From the NCBI GenBank assembly GCA_030616165.1, contig JAUWXV010000037.1, forward strand, positions 1 through 21,647: a stretch of DNA of 21,647 nucleotides, read 5' to 3'. How positions within the stretch are numbered: the first letter of the stretch is position 1; every line of letters starts with the position of its first letter. Below the pieces are notes generated by a model. It was not told the origin of the DNA, searched no databases, and saw nothing but the letters and a program-made list of their open reading frames with translations. The DNA comes from a bacterium. GTDB taxonomy: Bacteria; SM23-31; JAUVVT01. Positions 1 through 12,949 of this stretch are shown piece after piece. A program made the translations under genes and the position numbers.

Positions 1-1882
1 CAATAGTTGCAGTATTTTCACCCGAAATTTCTTCAGTCTGAACAAATTCTTCGCTAATATTTATGCCGATATTACTGTATATCGATCCAATCGTCTCATC
101 GAAATGTGTTTTCAATACATTTTCTATATAGGCAACTACAGATTCAGTAGTCTTTAACTTCGTCCCTTCTGGTAAGTGAACCTTTATTGTAAACTGACCC
201 TGATCTGCTTTTGGAATAAACTCCGTGCCAACGATAGGAATCAATAATATACAAATTATCAATAAAACCAACGTGCCTGATATAACATATTTTTTATTAT
301 TTAAAACTTTTTCCAAGAGATTCCAGTAAAATGGATATCTTATCTCTTTTTCGATTATTTCCCCTTTGAATTTCAAAAACTTTGATGCAAGCATCGGAAT
401 TAGCAGAAGTGCGACAAGAAGTGATGAAAGGAGAGAGAAGGCAACAGTCAATGCTTGTTCTTTAAACAATTCTCCTGCAATTCCATGAACAAAGATAATA
501 GGCAGAAAAACAACAACCGTGGTAATGGTTGATGTTATTATTGCTCTGGATACCTCCGACGTACCGTTTACTGCAGCATCTCTCATATTTTCACGAAGCT
601 GACGGTGCCTGAAAATATTCTCCACAACAACTATGGAATTATCAATCAGCATTCCTGCACCCAATGCCAGACCACCTAAAGTCATAATATTGATTGTGAG
701 GTCATTAAAATACATTAGATTAAATGTAGCAATAATGGATATAGGAATTGCAATACTGACAATTATCGTGGCTATGACATTCCTTAAGAATAAAAATAAA
801 ACAAGCACTGCCAGAATAATACCATAAATAGCGGTCTGCCTCACTTCACCAATTGCAGCATTTATAAACTTTGCCTGATCCGATGCTATATTTACATCTA
901 CACTCGGGAGTGAGTTTTTCAAAACACCGAGTTTCTTTTTCACTGCATCAATAACACGCACAGTATTGCTCTGAGCCTCCTTATAAATTGCAATACCAAC
1001 ACAGGGAACACCATTAATCCTCACTGAACTCATCGGTTCTTTATATCCCATATTGACTTTAGCAATATCTTTAAGCAGTACTGGAACCCTGTTTTCAGAA
1101 TAAATTTTTGCCTCGACCTTTTTACCAAAGGTCTCTTTTTCTTTATAACCTATCGTCACATTTTCAATATCTATTAGTGTATTGAATTCACCAATACCTT
1201 TTATAATATAAACCTTTTCATTATCCTTAATATTTCCCCCACTTGCATTAATATTAGAAGCCCTGATTCTGCTGACTACATCATTCAAGGTTAAACTATA
1301 TGCCTCTAATAAATACGGATTCACATTTATCAATACCTCTTTTTCAAGACCACCTGAAACAGATGCTGCAGCAACCCCTTCAACCCTCTCCAGTTCTCTC
1401 TTAACAACTGTTTCTGAAATCCTTCTTATCTCATCAAGGTCTTGATTTTCGGTGCCGACAATACTTAATGTCATTACTGGCATAGCTTGCGGATCATATT
1501 TTCCAACTGTCAACTCATCCACCTCTTCATTTCCAGCAAGACGACCAACCTTTTTCTGAATATCTATCATAGCAAAATCCATATCAGTATCCCAGAAAAA
1601 TTCCACAGTAACCTGTGTAAGTCCTACCCTCGATACTGAACTCACCTTCTTTACCTTGCTCACAGTGCTTACAAGCCCTTCAATATTTTTGGCAAACTGC
1701 TCTTCCATCTCTTGTGGGGGTTTTTCTCCAGATTTCAATGTCACCACTATCTTGGGGCTGTGGATGTCAGGCATAAGATCAGTTCCAAGTCTATTCAGCG
1801 ATATCAATCCGAGAAGAACTATTCCAATGATTATCATAACAACAGTTATAGGATATTTTACTGAAAAACCTGGTATATTCAT
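1..1882 (-). CDS. RND-family efflux transporter, inner-membrane pump (C-terminus cut by window start)
   Basis: This is the proton-driven inner-membrane pump of a tripartite efflux system, with 627 residues visible. I translated the minus strand from the ATG at 1882 (preceded by AAAGGCGAG) and the frame stays open to base 1. Seen: a first membrane helix at about residues 8-32, two periplasmic porter subdomains, then a block of helices from about residue 335. The helix-4 motif GAGMLIDNSIVVVEN carries the proton-relay Asp at residue 414. AcrB has two adjacent Asp here; this protein has Asp-Asn, as in many HAE1-type pumps outside the AcrB group. The second periplasmic loop begins near the window edge (GTEFIPKADQGQF, a common RND motif). 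Full-length members have about 1,030 residues, so roughly 400 are missing. It lies downstream of the adaptor and TolC genes. The substrate cannot be read from the sequence; drugs or lipids are more likely than metals. Confidence 0.95.
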   Translation of the reverse strand, partial: MNIPGFSVKYPITVVMIIIGIVLLGLISLNRLGTDLMPDIHSPKIVVTLKSGEKPPQEMEEQFAKNIEGLVSTVSKVKKVSSVSRVGLTQVTVEFFWDTDMDFAMIDIQKKVGRLAGNEEVDELTVGKYDPQAMPVMTLSIVGTENQDLDEIRRISETVVKRELERVEGVAAASVSGGLEKEVLINVNPYLLEAYSLTLNDVVSRIRASNINASGGNIKDNEKVYIIKGIGEFNTLIDIENVTIGYKEKETFGKKVEAKIYSENRVPVLLKDIAKVNMGYKEPMSSVRINGVPCVGIAIYKEAQSNTVRVIDAVKKKLGVLKNSLPSVDVNIASDQAKFINAAIGEVRQTAIYGIILAVLVLFLFLRNVIATIIVSIAIPISIIATFNLMYFNDLTINIMTLGGLALGAGMLIDNSIVVVENIFRHRQLRENMRDAAVNGTSEVSRAIITSTITTVVVFLPIIFVHGIAGELFKEQALTVAFSLLSSLLVALLLIPMLASKFLKFKGEIIEKEIRYPFYWNLLEKVLNNKKYVISGTLVLLIICILLIPIVGTEFIPKADQGQFTIKVHLPEGTKLKTTESVVAYIENVLKTHFDETIGSIYSNIGINISEEFVQTEEISGENTATI

Positions 1883-2191: not shown

Positions 2192-3244
2192 TTATTTGCC
2201 AACGGTAACCCTTGTTTTATCTTTTAATGTTTCATATCCCCTCAGGACAATTCTTTCTCCTTCTTCTAATCCGCTTATTATTTCTATATTTTCTTTATCT
2301 TCCAGTCCGAGCTCGACCTCTTTCATAATCGCCCTCTGTTTTTCCACAACGAAAACAACATCCCTATTATTTCTATTCAAAACAACATGCCTCGGCACAA
2401 GAACCGCATTTTCTTTTGATTCGATAACTATATCAACCTTAACAAACATACCTGGTATGAGCCTTCTTTTAGGATTATTAATGAATATTGTAACCTTATG
2501 TGTTCTGCTTTCCGCATCGATAGTTCGGCTTATTTCAGTTAATTCTCCAATAAAAATTTCTTCAGAGATTGCATAATTTATAACCTTTGCTTTATGTCCA
2601 ATTTTTATTCTTGCAATATCAGTATTAGATACATTCACCTCAACATAAACATTATCATAATCCATAATTTTCCCTATCACCCTTCCAGCAGTAACATAAT
2701 CGCCTTCTGTAATTTTTTCAAGTCTAACCAATATTCCGGAAATGGGAGTTTTTACATTGAGTTTATCCATCATTATTAATGATGCTTCATAATTATACTT
2801 TGCATCCACTCTATGCTGGTCTGCAAGTTGAACTTCTTTTAAAGTAACGCCTCCCTTTTCGTACAGGCTTTTTTGTTTTTCATATTCTCTTTCAGCAGTC
2901 TCCATAGTTTTAAGTTTTAACTCTACCCTTGCATTATTGACAAGTTCTCGGTTCTCTAATTTTGCAATCATCTGATTCGTTTTAACACGAATTCCTTCCT
3001 GTATCCTGAAATTGGATGTAGAAGCAAAACTGAAAAATCCTGATGCTTCTGTTAATATCTCCGCTTCGGCTATTGGTTTTATTGTTCCTGTTGATGAAAC
3101 ATATTCTTCAATCAGCCCCGTTTCAACACTTTGAACAGATACAGGAACATCTATTAACTCCATTTCTGTATTGTCCTGCCCCCCGCAGTTCAAAACAAAC
3201 AACATTATCAAAAATATTTGCCATAATTTAAATATCTCTTTCAA
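2192..3244 (-). CDS. HlyD/MFP-type periplasmic adaptor lipoprotein of an RND efflux system
   Basis: The membrane fusion protein links the RND pump to the TolC-like channel. The layout is typical of the family: a short N-terminal strand region (VSSTGTIKPIAEAEIL), a lipoyl-like half, an alpha-helical hairpin (about residues 90-150), the second lipoyl half (LNVKTPISGILVRL), a beta-barrel (PGMFVKVDIVI) and a C-terminal membrane-proximal domain ending at residue 350. The N-terminus is a lipoprotein signal with the candidate acylated Cys at residue 20 (FVLNC); Asn before Cys is unusual for a lipobox. I chose the TTG at 3244 because AGGAG lies seven bases upstream. An in-frame ATG at 3259 gives five more residues but has no visible ribosome-binding site. 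It sits between the TolC-like and RND genes on the same strand, and a repeat separates it from the pump. Confidence 0.93.
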   Translation of the reverse strand: MKEIFKLWQIFLIMLFVLNCGGQDNTEMELIDVPVSVQSVETGLIEEYVSSTGTIKPIAEAEILTEASGFFSFASTSNFRIQEGIRVKTNQMIAKLENRELVNNARVELKLKTMETAEREYEKQKSLYEKGGVTLKEVQLADQHRVDAKYNYEASLIMMDKLNVKTPISGILVRLEKITEGDYVTAGRVIGKIMDYDNVYVEVNVSNTDIARIKIGHKAKVINYAISEEIFIGELTEISRTIDAESRTHKVTIFINNPKRRLIPGMFVKVDIVIESKENAVLVPRHVVLNRNNRDVVFVVEKQRAIMKEVELGLEDKENIEIISGLEEGERIVLRGYETLKDKTRVTVGK

Positions 3245-3356
3245 AACTATACTCCTCATTTTATTATTTATCTTTGTAAATTTAAAAGTTTCTTATAAAA
3301 CTTACTACAAAAAAATTAATAATATCCTTTTATATTATACTATTGAAAATAAAAAA

Positions 3357-4871
3357 TTATTCAATCTCAGAGATTGCAGGTCTATTATTTTCAAAATCCC
3401 ACATAGTTTTAACAACAATATCCATCAATGCCTTTTTATAATCAATCAACGCACTCAAATACTCCACCCTTGCTCTGGTAAGACTGTTCTGTTCAAGAGC
3501 CAGTTCTCTTGAAGTAATGTCTCCATTTTTAAATCTCTCAAGTGAAATATCATAAGTCTTTTCAGCAAGTTCAATATTTTTCTCTGTTATTTCGATTCTG
3601 CTTTTACTCTCTTCAAGCCTTCTTACAGCATCTCTGACTTCTTCTTTTAGTGTCTCCTTGGTATCATCCAGTTTATATTCAGCATTTTTAAGGTCGGCTT
3701 CCGCTGCTTGAACCTCAGCCTCATTTCTTCCCCAATCCCATAGTGGCATTGAAAAATTTATCCTTACACTCCGGGTAAGATCAAAATCATTAAATGTATT
3801 CCTATATTCTTCATCCGTTCCATCTATACCGTATGTAGCTATAATATTGCCTTTAAATTCACTTCTGCTGTCAGCATCTATAACGCTCAACTCGCTTCTT
3901 TCAATATATATTTCATCAACCCTTAATTCCGTTCTATATTTTAGCGCTTTATTTAAAGCATCATCAATATCAACTTCTATGGGTTTATATTCAAATTCTG
4001 CTGCTATATCTATTTCCTGCTCAATATCCAATCCAATTAAATGTTTGAATAAATCCTCGATTCTTCTAAGATTTCCAATACTCATTTCGAGGAAATTTTT
4101 ATTTCTTGCAAGTTCCACCTCAAGCTGCATTACTTCAACCTCCGGAATAAGGTCAGCCTGAAATCTATTCACAGCCATTTGATAGACATCTTCTGATTGT
4201 TTCACAAGACCTTCATCTATCTTTACCTGTTCTTTTGCCTGATAAAGGTCATAGAACCTATTAGTAACATCAGCAATTATTGCCAGTTTATATCTCTCAT
4301 ACTGTTCTTCTGTCTCTTCAAATCCCAGTTCAGCCCTTCTAATATTCATCTTCAGGGTATTTGGTGTAAAGATTGGCTGAACAAATTGGAAATATAATTT
4401 ATTCGAAAAAAATCTGCTGTCTGTTCTTCCGAACTCTTCTCCGGTTAAAGGATTGAATCGTTTGCTGTCATTGAAAAGGTCATTTCGGAAAAATGTTCCA
4501 TAAAGTGATAGAGTCCCATTAGTGCTGAATGGCTGGCTAATTATAATTTGACCCTGATTCTGAAAATTCCCCTTCTTTTCAAAAACATCTTTGTTTGAAA
4601 ATGCATCAAGAACTTGATTAATCGATTCCGAATAACTCGGCACATCAAAACTCAAATTTGCATAAGACCTCAATGAAGCCCTTGCTGCTTTAAGTGTTTC
4701 TGTCGACCTTCTTACACTCTCTTTAAGTGTTTTTATGCTGTAACTTTTATTCAACGCTGTCTCTACACTTTTCTCAAGTGTGAGTACTAATGGCGTTTCA
4801 CAAAATGACATCTTAGTAATAAAAAAAATTAAAATAAATAAAATTCCGATATAATTAAGTTTAATTCTCAT
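3357..4871 (-). CDS. TolC-family outer membrane efflux protein
   Basis: This is the outer-membrane channel of the tripartite exporter. The product has 504 residues, slightly longer than the usual 420-490. Residues 1-24 form a signal peptide (basic start, hydrophobic core, MSFCETP near the cleavage region). After it come two repeats of the outer-membrane efflux protein family, rich in long amphipathic helices. Seen: LTLEKSVETALNKSYSI at the start of the first repeat, VRINFSMPLWDWGRNEAEV opening the second, and the terminal helical stretch LERFKNGDITSRELALEQN. A Cys in the signal peptide could suggest a lipoprotein, but no clear lipobox precedes it. The ATG at 4871 follows AGGTGA at good spacing. 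It is the first gene of the set TolC, adaptor, pump, and about 130 bases separate it from the fused ABC permease upstream. Confidence 0.93.
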   Translation of the reverse strand: MRIKLNYIGILFILIFFITKMSFCETPLVLTLEKSVETALNKSYSIKTLKESVRRSTETLKAARASLRSYANLSFDVPSYSESINQVLDAFSNKDVFEKKGNFQNQGQIIISQPFSTNGTLSLYGTFFRNDLFNDSKRFNPLTGEEFGRTDSRFFSNKLYFQFVQPIFTPNTLKMNIRRAELGFEETEEQYERYKLAIIADVTNRFYDLYQAKEQVKIDEGLVKQSEDVYQMAVNRFQADLIPEVEVMQLEVELARNKNFLEMSIGNLRRIEDLFKHLIGLDIEQEIDIAAEFEYKPIEVDIDDALNKALKYRTELRVDEIYIERSELSVIDADSRSEFKGNIIATYGIDGTDEEYRNTFNDFDLTRSVRINFSMPLWDWGRNEAEVQAAEADLKNAEYKLDDTKETLKEEVRDAVRRLEESKSRIEITEKNIELAEKTYDISLERFKNGDITSRELALEQNSLTRARVEYLSALIDYKKALMDIVVKTMWDFENNRPAISEIE

Positions 4872-4999: not shown

Positions 5000-7900
5000 T
5001 TATTTTTTCACCCACTTTACAGCATCTGCAAGTATGAATCCATCTGATTTATCAGATAATTCAACTTTATAATCTCCTTTTGAAAAGTAATAGGTCCCTA
5101 ACCCGTTCCATCCTTTTTCGGAATTTCTTGCAAGAAATTCCAATCTTTCTTCACCGTCATCATGATAAATAGTAATCTCATATATTTTGCCAAGTCTTTT
5201 TTTAAAAAAATCGTCATTTATGTAAAAATATACAAAATATTCACCAGGCTCAGAAATATTTGCTTTCCAGACTGCAATATGTTTACCAGAACCCTTTTTC
5301 TTCACTAATGAGGTATGACGATATTTCCCGTAGGCATACTTGTTGTTTCTTAATCTCCATTTATTAAAACTACCCCAGGCATTCGGATTATTCGGGAGAT
5401 TGTATGCTAAAGGTCTGAAATCCTTCTTTTTTGATTTATCGATATCCGGTCTTAAAAGACTCTTTTCAGTTAAATCTTCCACATAAAAATTATCATCAAG
5501 ATCATCGACAATTATTTCATTACTAACAACATCAGGGAGTGTAGATACTGTTGTATAAGATTCCTCTCCCTTTTTTAATTTTTTATACTCCGAAATATAA
5601 AAATTTTCCCTGAAACTTTCTCTGTTAAGAGAGAAAAACGGCTCCACATCAACATACAAAGGCTTATCAGGAACGACAATTTTAATCTCCTTCTCCTCAT
5701 AGCTTTTAAAATTTGAAAATTTAGTAATCAGGTCTTCCTCAGTTTTAAATTCTAATTTAACATATCCTTCCCCCTTTTCTCCATTTTTCAGACGCACAAT
5801 TATTTGATAGGAAGGAGTTTCGGATTCAATCTGATATGCCTCAACACTTTTCAACAGAAACCCGGGAATCTGGGTGTTATAAAGCCAATTATTGAAAAAA
5901 TCGCTAAGACCATCCTTATAAATCTCTTCAGCAGTCTCTTTAAAAAGGTTAATAGTAGGATAATCAAAAGAATATTTAGAGACAAAAGTCTTTAGTAATT
6001 CTCCAAATTTTTCACTTCCCATCATCTCACGCAGGGTCTTAATCATTGCCTCCCCTTTAACATTCATAACATCCTTGAATAAATCTGGGTCATCCATCGG
6101 AGAAAATTCGCTCAGTGGTTTTTCTTCCAACAATTTGTAAAGACTATCTATCCCCACTGAAAGTACTAACCTCCCACCCAATGAAAAACCAGCTTCACTA
6201 CTACCGCCTGGCCCTATACTCATATTAAACCCTCCCCGAAAACCACTAACTCTTATAGGTTGAATAGGCACAATCCCTGTTACCCATTCAGCAACAAAGT
6301 TATTCATCCCAAATGTGAGTAATGGATATAAATTATCTTTCGGGTCAATCCTGAATCCCCAATAGTTCGGTATAAACTTATGGTCTATGCGGGATTCAAA
6401 CACGCCTGAACGTGAAATATACCCATTAAGAATATCCAACTTTACCTTTTCCTCAGAAGTATCCTCCCCCCTTCTTTTTGCACGATTAATAAGCCTCTTA
6501 AATCTACCTTCAAAATTTGCTGACAGAATCCCCCCTTCTTTCATCATCGATATGCCGGGTAGATTCATAACACTTGCTCTATCCCAGCTCTTCGAAAATT
6601 CTGCCATTTGAACTGGAACCTCTATTAAGGAAATACTTTTATATGGATAACTTAATCCTGTCCTATACCTTATTTCTCTTAATTTTTCAGCAATAAAACC
6701 TTTCAAAGTATCAGAAACATCAGAGTAAAAGGAAATATTTTTATTATGTAATGGTGAATAATATAATGTACATTTGATACTATCATACATAGCACTTACA
6801 GTTTCATATTTTCCAGTATTTATTGAAAATTTCGGAACAGGTATATCAGAAATCCAGGTAAAAACCGATTCTTCCTTATTTTCCACCACAGAAACAAGTT
6901 CTCCTTGAGTTAAAGTAATATGACCTTTAGGCACTTTTATACTTATATCCGATGTCGAAAAACATACCCTTCTTTTTTCTGGATACTGATATCCACAACT
7001 GGCTCCCATTGTGGGATACCACCCTGTCTCTGGAAGCAAAAATGAATAATCTTTACCTATACAGTAATAAATCGCACCTGCAAGTTCTTGAAGAATAATA
7101 TCTTCATATCCTTTCTTCGATTCATCAAATTCTAAAAAGAATGCCCTATCGTCAAGTTTTCCATCATAATCGATAATTATATTTGTTGAATCGTCTGGGA
7201 AAACTGGAACATCTGAAATATCAATATTTAAAATTGAATAATCCCTATCAAATTTAACAGGTATCTGCTTATTATCTTTTTCAATTAAACAACGATTTAT
7301 TTTTAGTCCTGGATTTAATGAAAATATCAAATTATTTAATTTTTTATCTGTATCATTTAAAATTTTTATCTCTGCCAATACTTCTATTTCTCTATTTTTT
7401 GGAAGTAAATTTATTTTCATAGAGTAGTGCTTAAGCCAGGGCACATCATAATTAACATACCTCTTTTCTGCTTCAAGGGCTGTTTTTCTATATTCAGCCC
7501 TCTTTCCTGCTTTATACGGAAAATAATAGATAATCGCCGATGAAACTAAAACCATAATAATTATTGTTATTTTCAATAAACTATATTCTCTTTTGAACTG
7601 CCTCAGTCTGGGATAAAAAAGTATGGACAATCCAATAAACACAAATCCAAGAATTACATACAAAACCCTCTGAAGAATAACCGTATCAATATTTGCAAAT
7701 CCCACAAGGTCTGAAGTAAAAATTGATATCCGGTAGCATCCAAAATCAAGTAAATTATAAAAATATCTCGAAAGCCAAAACCAAATTACTCCAACATATC
7801 CTAATGATAAAAATATCACAGCAAAGCGATTCTTTACAGAAAGGACTATAAAAAATTCAAAAGCAGATATATATAATACGGAAGGAATGTTAATCATCAG

Positions 7901-8356
7901 GAAATAAAAAATATAATTTTCAAATTTTACAGGCACATCAAGAAAAATCAGCCCCATTATTAAACTAAGAAGCATAATAAATAGACTAACAAGCATGATA
8001 GGAATAATAACACCAAGATATTTACCGATAATAATTTCAAAAGATGTCAGGGGTTTTGATAATAAAACATCTCTTATATTAGAAAAATCATCTTTGCTTT
8101 TGAAGTTGAAAACAAAAAATATCATTGCAATATTTATCACAGTGCTAAAATATATTAAAGAAAAATATCCTATAGTATTAACAGCAAGTAAACCAAATTG
8201 CACCTCCCCTGAAGCAAATACATTAAACATTATTACGCCGGCAGTTATAAAACCAGCAATAACAAATCCAATACCGCATAAAATCCAGAATCTTGCAGTG
8301 CGTAAAAGGAGTTTCATTTCGTATTTTGCAATTGTTCCAGTATTTAAAAAATTCAT
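5000..8356 (-). CDS. ABC-2 permease fused to a degenerate M1 aminopeptidase-like domain and a golvesin-type C-terminal domain
   Basis: The 1,118-residue protein has three parts. Residues 1-281 carry about seven membrane helices with ABC-2 permease character; the partner ATPase lies at 8845-9747. From about residue 307 (PWLKHYSMKINLLP) to about 850 comes an M1-peptidase-like region, presumably outside the cytoplasm. Its metal site should read HExxH-x18-E. Here it reads H659-K660-F-I-P663, followed after exactly 18 residues by F682, then NYWGFRID where active relatives have an HQWWG-like stretch. Only one zinc ligand remains and the catalytic Glu is gone, so it is probably not a peptidase. The helical M1 C-terminal part is recognisable (VKGEAMIKTLREMMGSEKF; FFNNWLYNTQIPGF). 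Residues 994-1118 resemble the golvesin C-terminal/xanthan-lyase-like domain (GWNGLGTYYF; ILADAVKWV at the end). Start: ATG 8356 has GGTGA seven bases upstream; an in-frame ATG at 8392 lacks one. ABC permease/M1 fusions are known; this inactivated form is the oddity. Confidence 0.9.
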   Translation of the reverse strand: MNFLNTGTIAKYEMKLLLRTARFWILCGIGFVIAGFITAGVIMFNVFASGEVQFGLLAVNTIGYFSLIYFSTVINIAMIFFVFNFKSKDDFSNIRDVLLSKPLTSFEIIIGKYLGVIIPIMLVSLFIMLLSLIMGLIFLDVPVKFENYIFYFLMINIPSVLYISAFEFFIVLSVKNRFAVIFLSLGYVGVIWFWLSRYFYNLLDFGCYRISIFTSDLVGFANIDTVILQRVLYVILGFVFIGLSILFYPRLRQFKREYSLLKITIIIMVLVSSAIIYYFPYKAGKRAEYRKTALEAEKRYVNYDVPWLKHYSMKINLLPKNREIEVLAEIKILNDTDKKLNNLIFSLNPGLKINRCLIEKDNKQIPVKFDRDYSILNIDISDVPVFPDDSTNIIIDYDGKLDDRAFFLEFDESKKGYEDIILQELAGAIYYCIGKDYSFLLPETGWYPTMGASCGYQYPEKRRVCFSTSDISIKVPKGHITLTQGELVSVVENKEESVFTWISDIPVPKFSINTGKYETVSAMYDSIKCTLYYSPLHNKNISFYSDVSDTLKGFIAEKLREIRYRTGLSYPYKSISLIEVPVQMAEFSKSWDRASVMNLPGISMMKEGGILSANFEGRFKRLINRAKRRGEDTSEEKVKLDILNGYISRSGVFESRIDHKFIPNYWGFRIDPKDNLYPLLTFGMNNFVAEWVTGIVPIQPIRVSGFRGGFNMSIGPGGSSEAGFSLGGRLVLSVGIDSLYKLLEEKPLSEFSPMDDPDLFKDVMNVKGEAMIKTLREMMGSEKFGELLKTFVSKYSFDYPTINLFKETAEEIYKDGLSDFFNNWLYNTQIPGFLLKSVEAYQIESETPSYQIIVRLKNGEKGEGYVKLEFKTEEDLITKFSNFKSYEEKEIKIVVPDKPLYVDVEPFFSLNRESFRENFYISEYKKLKKGEESYTTVSTLPDVVSNEIIVDDLDDNFYVEDLTEKSLLRPDIDKSKKKDFRPLAYNLPNNPNAWGSFNKWRLRNNKYAYGKYRHTSLVKKKGSGKHIAVWKANISEPGEYFVYFYINDDFFKKRLGKIYEITIYHDDGEERLEFLARNSEKGWNGLGTYYFSKGDYKVELSDKSDGFILADAVKWVKK

Positions 8357-8455
8357 CAAAAATTCACCTTTTCTGTTCCATGGAATATGCAAATTTTAAG
8401 TAATTATCCGAACTTTAGTAATCTTTTTATTTTTATTAAAATATCTACACACCCG

Positions 8456-8480
8456 TAGGGGCGGTTCGCGAACCGCCCTC
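8456..8480. repeat. Palindromic repeat, type GTAGGGGC...
   Basis: Positions 8459-8478 are a perfect 20-base palindrome (GGGCGGTTCG then its complement), preceded by GTAG. It has the same design as the palindrome at 8728-8757, with GG/CC in the arms where that one has AA/TT, so pairing is kept in both. Confidence 0.8.
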
Positions 8481-8611
8481 ACGCGTCTATCACCAACAGG
8501 TCTTAATTCCTCACGAAACGTGAAATAGAGAAAGGGCGATCCGTAATTAGTTACATTAATACTAATGTTATGTTTATCATAAATGTAAACCGACCAACGT
8601 CAAATTACCTC

Positions 8612-8640
8612 TGTCATTCCCCCGAGTACTCGGGGGAATC
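8612..8640. repeat. Palindromic repeat with CGAGTACTCG core
   Basis: Positions 8616-8639 are a perfect 24-base palindrome (ATTCCCCCGAGT and its complement) with the core CGAGTACTCG at 8623-8632. It is flanked by TGTC, as in the repeat copy at 1988-2040. Confidence 0.85.
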
Positions 8641-8681
8641 CATAATAAACAATATATTATAGTATGCCATAAAAAAATTAT

Positions 8682-8707
8682 ATTCCTCCCGAAAATTCGG
8701 GAGGAAT
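8682..8707. repeat. Palindromic repeat, ATTCCTCCCGAA arms
   Basis: There are two perfect 12-base arms (8682-8693 and 8696-8707) separated by two bases. It is GC-rich within AT-rich sequence and lies 42 bases from the CGAGTACTCG palindrome. It could double as a strong RNA hairpin in the transcript between ATPase and permease. Confidence 0.75.
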
Positions 8708-8727
8708 TACAAAAAATATTTATTCTT

Positions 8728-8757
8728 TGTAGGGGCAATTCATGAATTGCCCCTACA
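8728..8757. repeat. Perfect 30-base palindrome, type GTAGGGGC...
   Basis: The left half TGTAGGGGCAATTCA (8728-8742) is the exact reverse complement of the right half (8743-8757). It is related to the element at 8456-8480, with changes on both arms that preserve pairing. Confidence 0.85.
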
Positions 8758-8844
8758 TCTCGTATTGTTTAACAAATACGTAATTTATAATAATTTAATA
8801 TATTTAATAAACCTTACAAAGAAATTTTTTAAGTTGAAAAAAAC

Positions 8845-9747
8845 TTACGCTAAATCTTCATCTGAGATTTTTTTGCCGACTTGAGTTTCCATAAAATAGA
8901 CATAAGCATCCTCGAGCGTGGGCTGGATTCTTTCTCCAGAATATTTATCAAGTTCCCTTCCTACTATCTTCAGTTCCAATTTCCCATTAACGGGCACCGT
9001 TGTTATAATGTTATAATTTTTCTTTATCTCATCCAGTTCTCTCTCATCAATCACTATTTTCCAAACGTGCCCCTCTGCCATTTTAACAAGTTCTAAAGGA
9101 TTACCTTCGAAAACTATCTTTCCATTATCCAAAAGAGCAATATTTTGACAGGTGCTCGATATATCGCCGACAATATGTGTCGAAAGAATAATAATTTTAT
9201 TCTGGCTAATGTCAGCCAGAAGGTTTCTGAATTTTATCCTCTCTTCGGGGTCGAGTCCGGTTGTGGGTTCATCTATTATAAGAACTTTAGGGTCTCCAAT
9301 CAGAGCCTGTGCAATTCCGAGTCGCCTTATCATCCCTCCTGATAATTTCTTTGCTTTGCGGTCTCTTACTTCTGTCAGTCCCATAACATCAAGCATCTCT
9401 TCAACTTCCTTTCTCTTTTTAGTTTTATTCTTTATTCCATTGAGCGAAGCGATGTAATCAAGAAACTCCCATGTTTTTAACTTAGGATATACTCCGAACT
9501 CCTGTGGAAGGTATCCCAACATCCCTCTTATTTCTTTTCGATTATTAGCAATATCATATTTACCTACTTTTACATCTCCGCTTGTAGCTTCAAGTAACGT
9601 TGCAAGTATCTTCATCAAGGTTGTTTTACCAGCACCATTAGGACCTAAAAGCCCAAACATCCCTTCTCCTATCTCAATATTTACATCATCAAGGGCTTTA
9701 ACTCCTTTCTTGTAAATCTTCGTCAAATTTTTAATATTTATCTTCAT
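8845..9747 (-). CDS. ABC transporter ATP-binding protein
   Basis: This is the ATPase subunit, most likely energising the fused permease encoded at 5000-8356. The 300 residues contain all motifs of an active ABC ATPase: Walker A GPNGAGKTT (residues 35-43), Q-loop Gln82, signature LSGGM (135-139), Walker B VLIIDE (155-160) with catalytic Glu160, D-loop and switch His191. The C-terminal 80 residues form a small accessory region ending in the TLEDAYVYFM motif common in ABC-2 exporter ATPases. The start ATG at 9747 has AAGGTG at good spacing. It is transcribed toward the permease, but 488 bases of repeat-rich spacer intervene. The cargo cannot be inferred from this subunit. Confidence 0.96.
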   Translation of the reverse strand: MKINIKNLTKIYKKGVKALDDVNIEIGEGMFGLLGPNGAGKTTLMKILATLLEATSGDVKVGKYDIANNRKEIRGMLGYLPQEFGVYPKLKTWEFLDYIASLNGIKNKTKKRKEVEEMLDVMGLTEVRDRKAKKLSGGMIRRLGIAQALIGDPKVLIIDEPTTGLDPEERIKFRNLLADISQNKIIILSTHIVGDISSTCQNIALLDNGKIVFEGNPLELVKMAEGHVWKIVIDERELDEIKKNYNIITTVPVNGKLELKIVGRELDKYSGERIQPTLEDAYVYFMETQVGKKISDEDLA

Positions 9748-12524: not shown

Positions 12525-12763
12525 AGCTCCTCCATTTCAAAATCAATTAACATTTATTGCATCTATTCTATTTCTAAAGATAATCATTTAATTTATAATA
12601 ATTTAAAAATAAAATATTTTTAATTTTTTGCAGAACTTTTGTAAATTTTTATTTAATTAATTCCACTTTAATTTCATTATTTCCTGTCTTTTGAAAAATA
12701 AATTAGAATTTTATATATACATACATAAAAAAAAATCCCCATATTATAAAATTGTGACTTTAT

Positions 12764-12893
12764 ATTAAAGAACCGTCTTCGACACGGTGGGTGCCTTCCC
12801 ATGCGCTTTTTACTTCCACTTCGAGATGAGGCCTGTAATAGACGCCTGGAGCAAAGCTCCCTATTTTATTAGTGTTGGTTCTTTAATTTGTAT
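12764..12893 (-). ncRNA. ssrS: Candidate 6S RNA, compact form
   Basis: 6S RNA binds the sigma-70 RNA polymerase holoenzyme by mimicking an open promoter. Evidence here is context plus fold. The element lies directly downstream of zapA on the same strand, the conserved 6S location in many bacteria. An 11-bp closing stem is perfect (12877-12887 with 12764-12774). An imperfect terminal stem can form (GCGTCTATTAC with GTAAAAAGCGC), leaving an open middle on both sides as in 6S. The 3' side contains GGCACCCACC, resembling the 6S central-bubble region. The element is clearly more GC-rich than its flanks. At about 125-130 nt it is shorter than usual (150-200), which is the main doubt. It is not 5S rRNA: the 5S loop order and length do not fit. 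If not 6S, it is still a structured RNA. Confidence 0.6.
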
Positions 12894-12900
12894 GCCACAA

Positions 12901-12906
12901 ATTATA
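12901..12906 (-). promoter_or_regulatory. -10 box for the 6S-like RNA
   Basis: A perfect TATAAT lies on the minus strand at 12906-12901, placing the expected transcript start near 12893, six bases before the closing stem. No good -35 hexamer is visible at 16-18 bases (TTTAGG is the closest). Confidence 0.5.
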
Positions 12907-12949
12907 ATACAGGGATAAATTAACCTAAATTATCTTTTCTCAGATTTTT

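Follow-up and report, generated by a model that had tools for sequence, protein, structure and literature searches.

Genes at the locus

The window, by which we mean the whole stretch of 21,647 nucleotides analysed, carries five genes in the same direction, one of which encodes a permease fused to an M1-like domain.

2..1882, minus strand: RND permease, downstream of the fusion gene and continuing past the window edge (NF033617, E 4.6e-113 on the partial protein)
2192..3259, minus strand: HlyD/RND-type periplasmic adaptor, downstream (TIGR01730, E 2.8e-53, over the cut-off)
3357..4871, minus strand: outer membrane efflux protein of the TolC family, downstream (PF02321, E 3.8e-55)
5000..8356, minus strand: ABC-2-type permease/pseudo-M1/Golvesin_C fusion (1118-aa ORF; 87-member family; AlphaFold2)
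8845..9747, minus strand: ABC ATPase, GldA/DrrA-like, 300 aa, upstream (PF00005, E 6.5e-31; best NCBIfam models TIGR03522 and TIGR01188)

The fusion ORF (8356..5000) was intact from its ATG and without interruption over 1118 aa. The ATPase and fusion genes are separated by a 488-bp gap (8357-8844); in most relatives they nearly touch or overlap. The gap contains back-to-back palindromes (8616-8639, 8682-8707 and 8728-8757) that are REP- or MITE-like. A 6S RNA (RF00013, 61.6 bits) was found at 12732-12918 on the minus strand.

Domain layout of the fusion protein

The AlphaFold2 model of the 1118-aa fusion (87 relatives in the alignment) had a pLDDT of 85.5 and a pTM of 0.82. The protein was divided as follows.

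7460..8356, minus strand: residues 1-299, amphipathic N-terminal helix and about seven TM helices (AlphaFold2 model, hydropathy, fusion homology)
5852..7474, minus strand: residues 295-835, M1-peptidase-fold arm (VIA-align, hhalign, active-site columns)
5567..5851, minus strand: residues 836-930, beta-rich, after the M1-like helices (strands in the model; VIA-align range to ~919)
5486..5512, minus strand: residues 949-957, IVDDLDDNF, a family signature (consensus IVDNEDxGF; I949, D951 and F957 invariant in 87 sequences)
5009..5347, minus strand: residues 1004-1116, Golvesin_C (PF25275; 49.2 bits against a gathering cut-off of 31.6)

The permease helices in the model spanned residues 21-47, 54-83, 105-138, 145-174, 177-198, 223-247 and 255-299, and helix 85-98 took the position of the ABC coupling helix. 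By model and hydropathy, this part has the six to seven TM helices and the amphipathic N-terminal and coupling helices of an ABC-2 exporter. No Pfam permease model matched the 1118-aa protein at E 1 or better. The homology was seen through the family of ABC/M1 fusions that bear HExxH, to whose second permease half residues 1-299 were homologous (hhalign).

The arm consists of an N-terminal beta domain and a catalytic-like helical domain, without the catalytic residues. Judging from the model, the beta-rich segment behind it is probably M1 domain III-like. The C-terminal end of the permease part (residues 1-299) is expected to lie in the periplasm. The initial annotation had missed the Golvesin_C domain, the surrounding efflux cassette and three paralogs within the genome.

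Evidence for the M1 fold

With the single sequence, Golvesin_C was the only confident Pfam domain. The match to PF01433 was weak (E 7e-5, residues 753-824 only), and its 22.9 bits fell below the cut-off of 27.7. When the family alignment was compared by hhalign with 27 soluble M1 proteins, each carrying HExxH-x18-E, the probability was 99.8% (E 1.3e-28). Comparison with a 13-sequence alignment of the HExxH-bearing fusions gave E 2.2e-43 across permease and M1 parts. A profile search of solved structures matched M1 enzymes in several stretches.

Structure prediction, proposed in the initial annotation as a check, gave an M1-like fold over residues ~295-919. By VIA-align this part of the model matched IRAP, ERAP1, tricorn F3, a Deinococcus M1 enzyme and LTA4H with Z of 23-25. 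Model, profiles and alignment thus agree with the original reading of an ABC-2-like permease joined to an M1-fold domain without catalytic residues.

The active site is lost

Two segments bear on the former metal site.

6311..6382, minus strand: residues 659-682, HKFIPNYWG...F, the earlier placement of HExxH-x18-E (active-site columns, profile alignment, model)
6410..6454, minus strand: residues 635-649, helix in place of the HExxH helix by element order (models, alignments)

H659, K660, P663 and F682 (numbered from the ATG) were located where the initial annotation had put them, and the catalytic Glu, second zinc His and zinc Glu were all replaced, as it had claimed. The active-site columns showed that the loss is in fact wider. 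The window protein lacks both zinc His, the catalytic Glu, the zinc Glu, the catalytic Tyr and the GxMEN Glu. P663 aligned with the second zinc His and F682 with the zinc Glu of the soluble M1 proteins (hhalign). N765 took the position of the catalytic Tyr, in a column where Tyr is outside the six commonest residues. N598 took that of the GxMEN Glu, which is Val in 47 of the 87 sequences of the family alignment. Of the characters of an M1 metallopeptidase, the fold is present, and the zinc site, the catalytic Tyr and the GxMEN exopeptidase motif are all missing.

An intact HExxH elsewhere in the window protein was also looked for and was absent. The M1 site lacked HExxH in all 87 aligned members and in all 20 Butyricimonas synergistica paralogs. 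One relative (L082) has HESLH at 408, outside the M1 site, as a chance occurrence. No His column in the M1 region was conserved above 75% in the 87-sequence alignment, and on this ground an alternative metal site was rejected.

In the profile alignment, 'HE' fell near K638-V639, within helix 635-649, and 'xxH' fell at F661-P663; a variable insertion separated the two. Helix 635-649 contains no His, and its counterpart by element order in an HExxH-bearing fusion is helix 935-952. In the model of that fusion, HExxH lies within this continuous helix and the Glu helix (961-981) comes close after. In the dead form the insertion ahead of FIP-NYWG was long and variable among relatives, and pLDDT dropped below 50 at residues 652-659. 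The model and the alignments suggest that the insertion may divide the ancestral HExxH motif. Two placements are possible, the H659/K660 register being one of them, and the ligand set is missing from both.

The 23 residues from H659 to F682 do give the HExxH-x18-E spacing read initially. Its exactness before YWG is probably coincidental, because the profile alignment places a variable insertion inside the motif and the model is weak at 652-659. The placements of the retained YWG, of P663 and of F682 stand, but H659 was ruled out as a relic, since its column is His in only 4 of 87 sequences and Tyr in 57. Nor was continued peptide binding at the site upheld. The amine-binding Glu of GxMEN is gone, which also weakens the case for binding a peptide N-terminus through that motif, and no other part of the domain varies as much as the old active-site segment.

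Distribution and selection

Scanning named genome contigs yielded 255 relatives, of which 80 were retained; the scan was seeded with the IVDDxDxGF signature and is therefore biased to members having that C-terminal part. By title, the 80 belonged to Bacteroidota, candidate division KSB1, Latescibacterota, Krumholzibacteriia, Calditrichaeota/Caldithrix, Chlorobiota, Hydrogenedentota, Acidobacteriota/Holophagae and one gammaproteobacterial MAG. Among 148 genomes drawn evenly from the phylum of Carboxylicivirga, a strong match was present in 3, one of them the centre genome, so the family is patchy.

The genome of the window has three further copies (~32% identity). Butyricimonas synergistica DSM 23225 has about 20 (L167-L172, L184-L196), most of them without an adjacent ATPase. 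Sigma factor, anti-sigma and TonB-receptor-like genes are found close to several of these copies. In a relative of the same class (L016 1468-4741, minus strand) the gene occupies two frames of 862 and 243 aa, owing to a frameshift or an assembly error.

Purifying selection was estimated from close pairs with measurable dS. In the catalytic-like domain, dN/dS ranged from 0.03 to 0.31 (0.03 for L053/L090, 0.31 for L046/L047, 0.07 for L063/L065, 0.05 for L042/L057, 0.06 for L057/L099 and 0.09 for L039/L044), mostly no higher than in the M1 N-terminal domain. With the motif in none of 87 members and dN/dS this low, the loss proved to be clade-wide, not recent, and under purifying selection, a point on which the initial annotation had sought a survey of relatives. 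An assembly error or a lone decayed copy was ruled out by the 87 aligned members, the three same-genome paralogs and the low dN/dS.

Four residues of the M1-like domain (E579, P581, E607 and K767) were invariant in the 87-sequence alignment, and N858 and the IVDDxDxGF signature were invariant or nearly so. All were kept in the 20 Butyricimonas paralogs too.

6536..6538, minus strand: E607, invariant in 87/87 (visual counterpart of E919, the YRE-type Glu, in the HExxH-bearing fusions)
6056..6058, minus strand: K767, invariant in 87/87 (the Lys of M1 Y-x-K-G; N765 lies two residues before)

Strong purifying selection on a catalytic-like domain, together with the invariance of E579, E607 and K767, would fit an enzyme whose active site has been rebuilt. 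We consider this very improbable. The best His column in the region reaches only 75%, and the segment of the former active site varies strongly. The invariant residues, moreover, look like scaffold, because the HExxH-bearing fusions keep counterparts of them (E900, E919 and K1020, matched by eye).

Relation to the HExxH-bearing fusions

The initial annotation had pointed to ABC/M1 fusions with an intact HExxH. Such proteins exist, and all 15 that were detected are related to the dead form in the permease as well as in the M1 part. The 103 dead-form sequences all grouped together in a FastTree tree, with support of 1.0, on a long branch. The root was placed by the HExxH-bearing fusions, so the tree shows separation. 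The simplest reading would be a single loss.

The HExxH-bearing fusions (L179 2066-5644, L198-L212) keep HExxH and the Tyr and have FAQSF-like residues at the GxMEN position. This replacement makes the label 'aminopeptidase' doubtful for them. In a Fulvivirgaceae genome (L179), a dead-form system and an HExxH-bearing one lie about 5 kb apart.

A five-gene efflux cassette

Neighbouring genes were compared at the 53 loci with enough flank, which had been chosen on the permease alone with neighbours ignored. The order ATPase, permease/pseudo-M1, TolC, HlyD adaptor and RND, all on one strand, was found in 48 of them, across several phyla, and also in the window. The conserved unit is this five-gene cassette, and the unit first described was too small. 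The cognate ATPase adjoined the permease in 65 of 69 relatives, as in the window (9747-8845). The HExxH-bearing fusions also had an ATPase upstream (15/15), but no OEP, MFP or RND gene was found within ~1.5 kb of any of the 15. Since they adjoin an ATPase only, the efflux link accompanies the dead form.

The cassette order is a sign of co-regulation rather than of physical coupling. The cassette is lacking around the window genome's three paralogs and around most Butyricimonas copies, which indicates that the permease can act apart from an adjoining pump. Elsewhere in the genome of the window (L197 4251-9733), genes for an RND permease (1237 aa), an ATPase (374 aa, 44% identical to that of the window) and an ABC-2-like permease (248 aa) are consecutive, forming another RND-ABC pairing.

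The constant presence of a complete RND tripartite pump next door, one that could export alone, admits a reading of the ABC unit as a sensor or flux gauge. The arm, which is large and ligand-sized and lacks the enzymatic residues, would bind an envelope-damaging compound, and the ATPase and permease would control or energise the RND pump with little export of their own. The ATPase and permease resemble an ordinary exporter pair, however, and the cassette has no recurrent regulator or kinase gene. We regard this reading as quite unlikely.

Another reading turns on Golvesin_C, whose nearest solved sequence is the C-terminus of a Paenibacillus xanthan lyase (6f2p, E 4.7e-13). The ABC transporter might handle an envelope component (a lipoprotein, glycolipid or glycan), with Golvesin_C binding glycan and the RND/TolC genes linked through envelope stress only. 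The family members are in Gram-negative-type lineages, and carbohydrate-type genes, as judged from sequence starts, stand close to some of the orphan paralogs in the genome of the window. Yet glycan and lipoprotein genes are not a recurrent part of the cassette, and this alternative appears distinctly improbable.

Proposed role

We favour, as the probable reading, a non-catalytic arm that serves an ABC exporter as a periplasmic platform, the exporter forming one export route with the RND/TolC pump. The fusion protein would supply the membrane part of an export-type ABC transporter. It would probably act as a homodimer, powered by the ATPase at 9747-8845, and from each copy would project a large periplasmic arm made of the dead M1 fold and Golvesin_C. 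This arm would receive, hold or gate the exported molecule without enzymatic action; alternatively, it may dock the ABC unit to the neighbouring TolC/HlyD/RND tripartite pump. The five proteins together would make a single envelope export route. By analogy with RND pumps of this type, a hydrophobic or amphiphilic molecule would be the default guess for the substrate.

A bolder version is a hybrid export machine, new and belonging to Gram-negative-type bacteria, in which the dead arm physically couples the ABC exporter to the RND/TolC pump so that an ATP-driven and a proton-driven pump share one exit. It would have arisen once, through loss of peptidase activity in an M1-fused ABC exporter, with some 20 later copies made in Butyricimonas. 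We hold this version to be rather unlikely.

Comparison with known systems

The dead arm is a real and conserved part of a transporter, not a broken gene, and is apparently undescribed. In the papers searched, which were mostly open-access, we found no account of the dead M1 arm family, the fixed ABC-RND-TolC cassette or ABC/M1 fusions. No plasmid matches were found. M1 pseudoenzymes and ABC/M1 fusions are kinds already known, and transporter-fused pseudoenzymes are rare. Automatic annotation may call the dead-arm permease a peptidase, or overlook the domain. That the ABC, RND and TolC genes form a fixed cassette in so many phyla suggests a shared export route, which is testable in cultured species such as those of Mangrovibacterium, Carboxylicivirga or Butyricimonas.

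The M1 metallopeptidases (ERAP1/2, IRAP, tricorn F3, LTA4H, PepN) resemble residues ~295-919 in fold (Z about 25) and differ in having the HExxH, zinc Glu, catalytic Tyr and GxMEN that the dead arm lacks. TAF2, the aminopeptidase-like subunit of TFIID, is an M1-fold pseudoenzyme serving as a scaffold. Unlike the dead-arm permease, it is eukaryotic and nuclear and is not fused to a transporter.

MacAB-TolC is an ABC exporter with a periplasmic domain that works with an adaptor and TolC. The window resembles it in having an ABC unit with a predicted periplasmic domain beside an adaptor and TolC. On the other hand, the window permease is ABC-2-like with an M1-fold arm, and its adaptor/TolC pair has an RND permease of its own.

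Also close are the HExxH-bearing ABC/M1 fusions of Bacteroidota, which share the permease-M1 order, the homology (E 2.2e-43) and an upstream ATPase of the same family. Unlike the dead form, they have two permease halves with 12 TM helices (hydropathy and model), an intact HExxH and Y-x-K-G, and no OEP, MFP or RND neighbours. Golvesin_C, present in the dead form, was not seen in the one such protein inspected. The dead form and these fusions, which lack the RND genes, together constitute a natural experiment in the change of an enzyme domain into a structural part.
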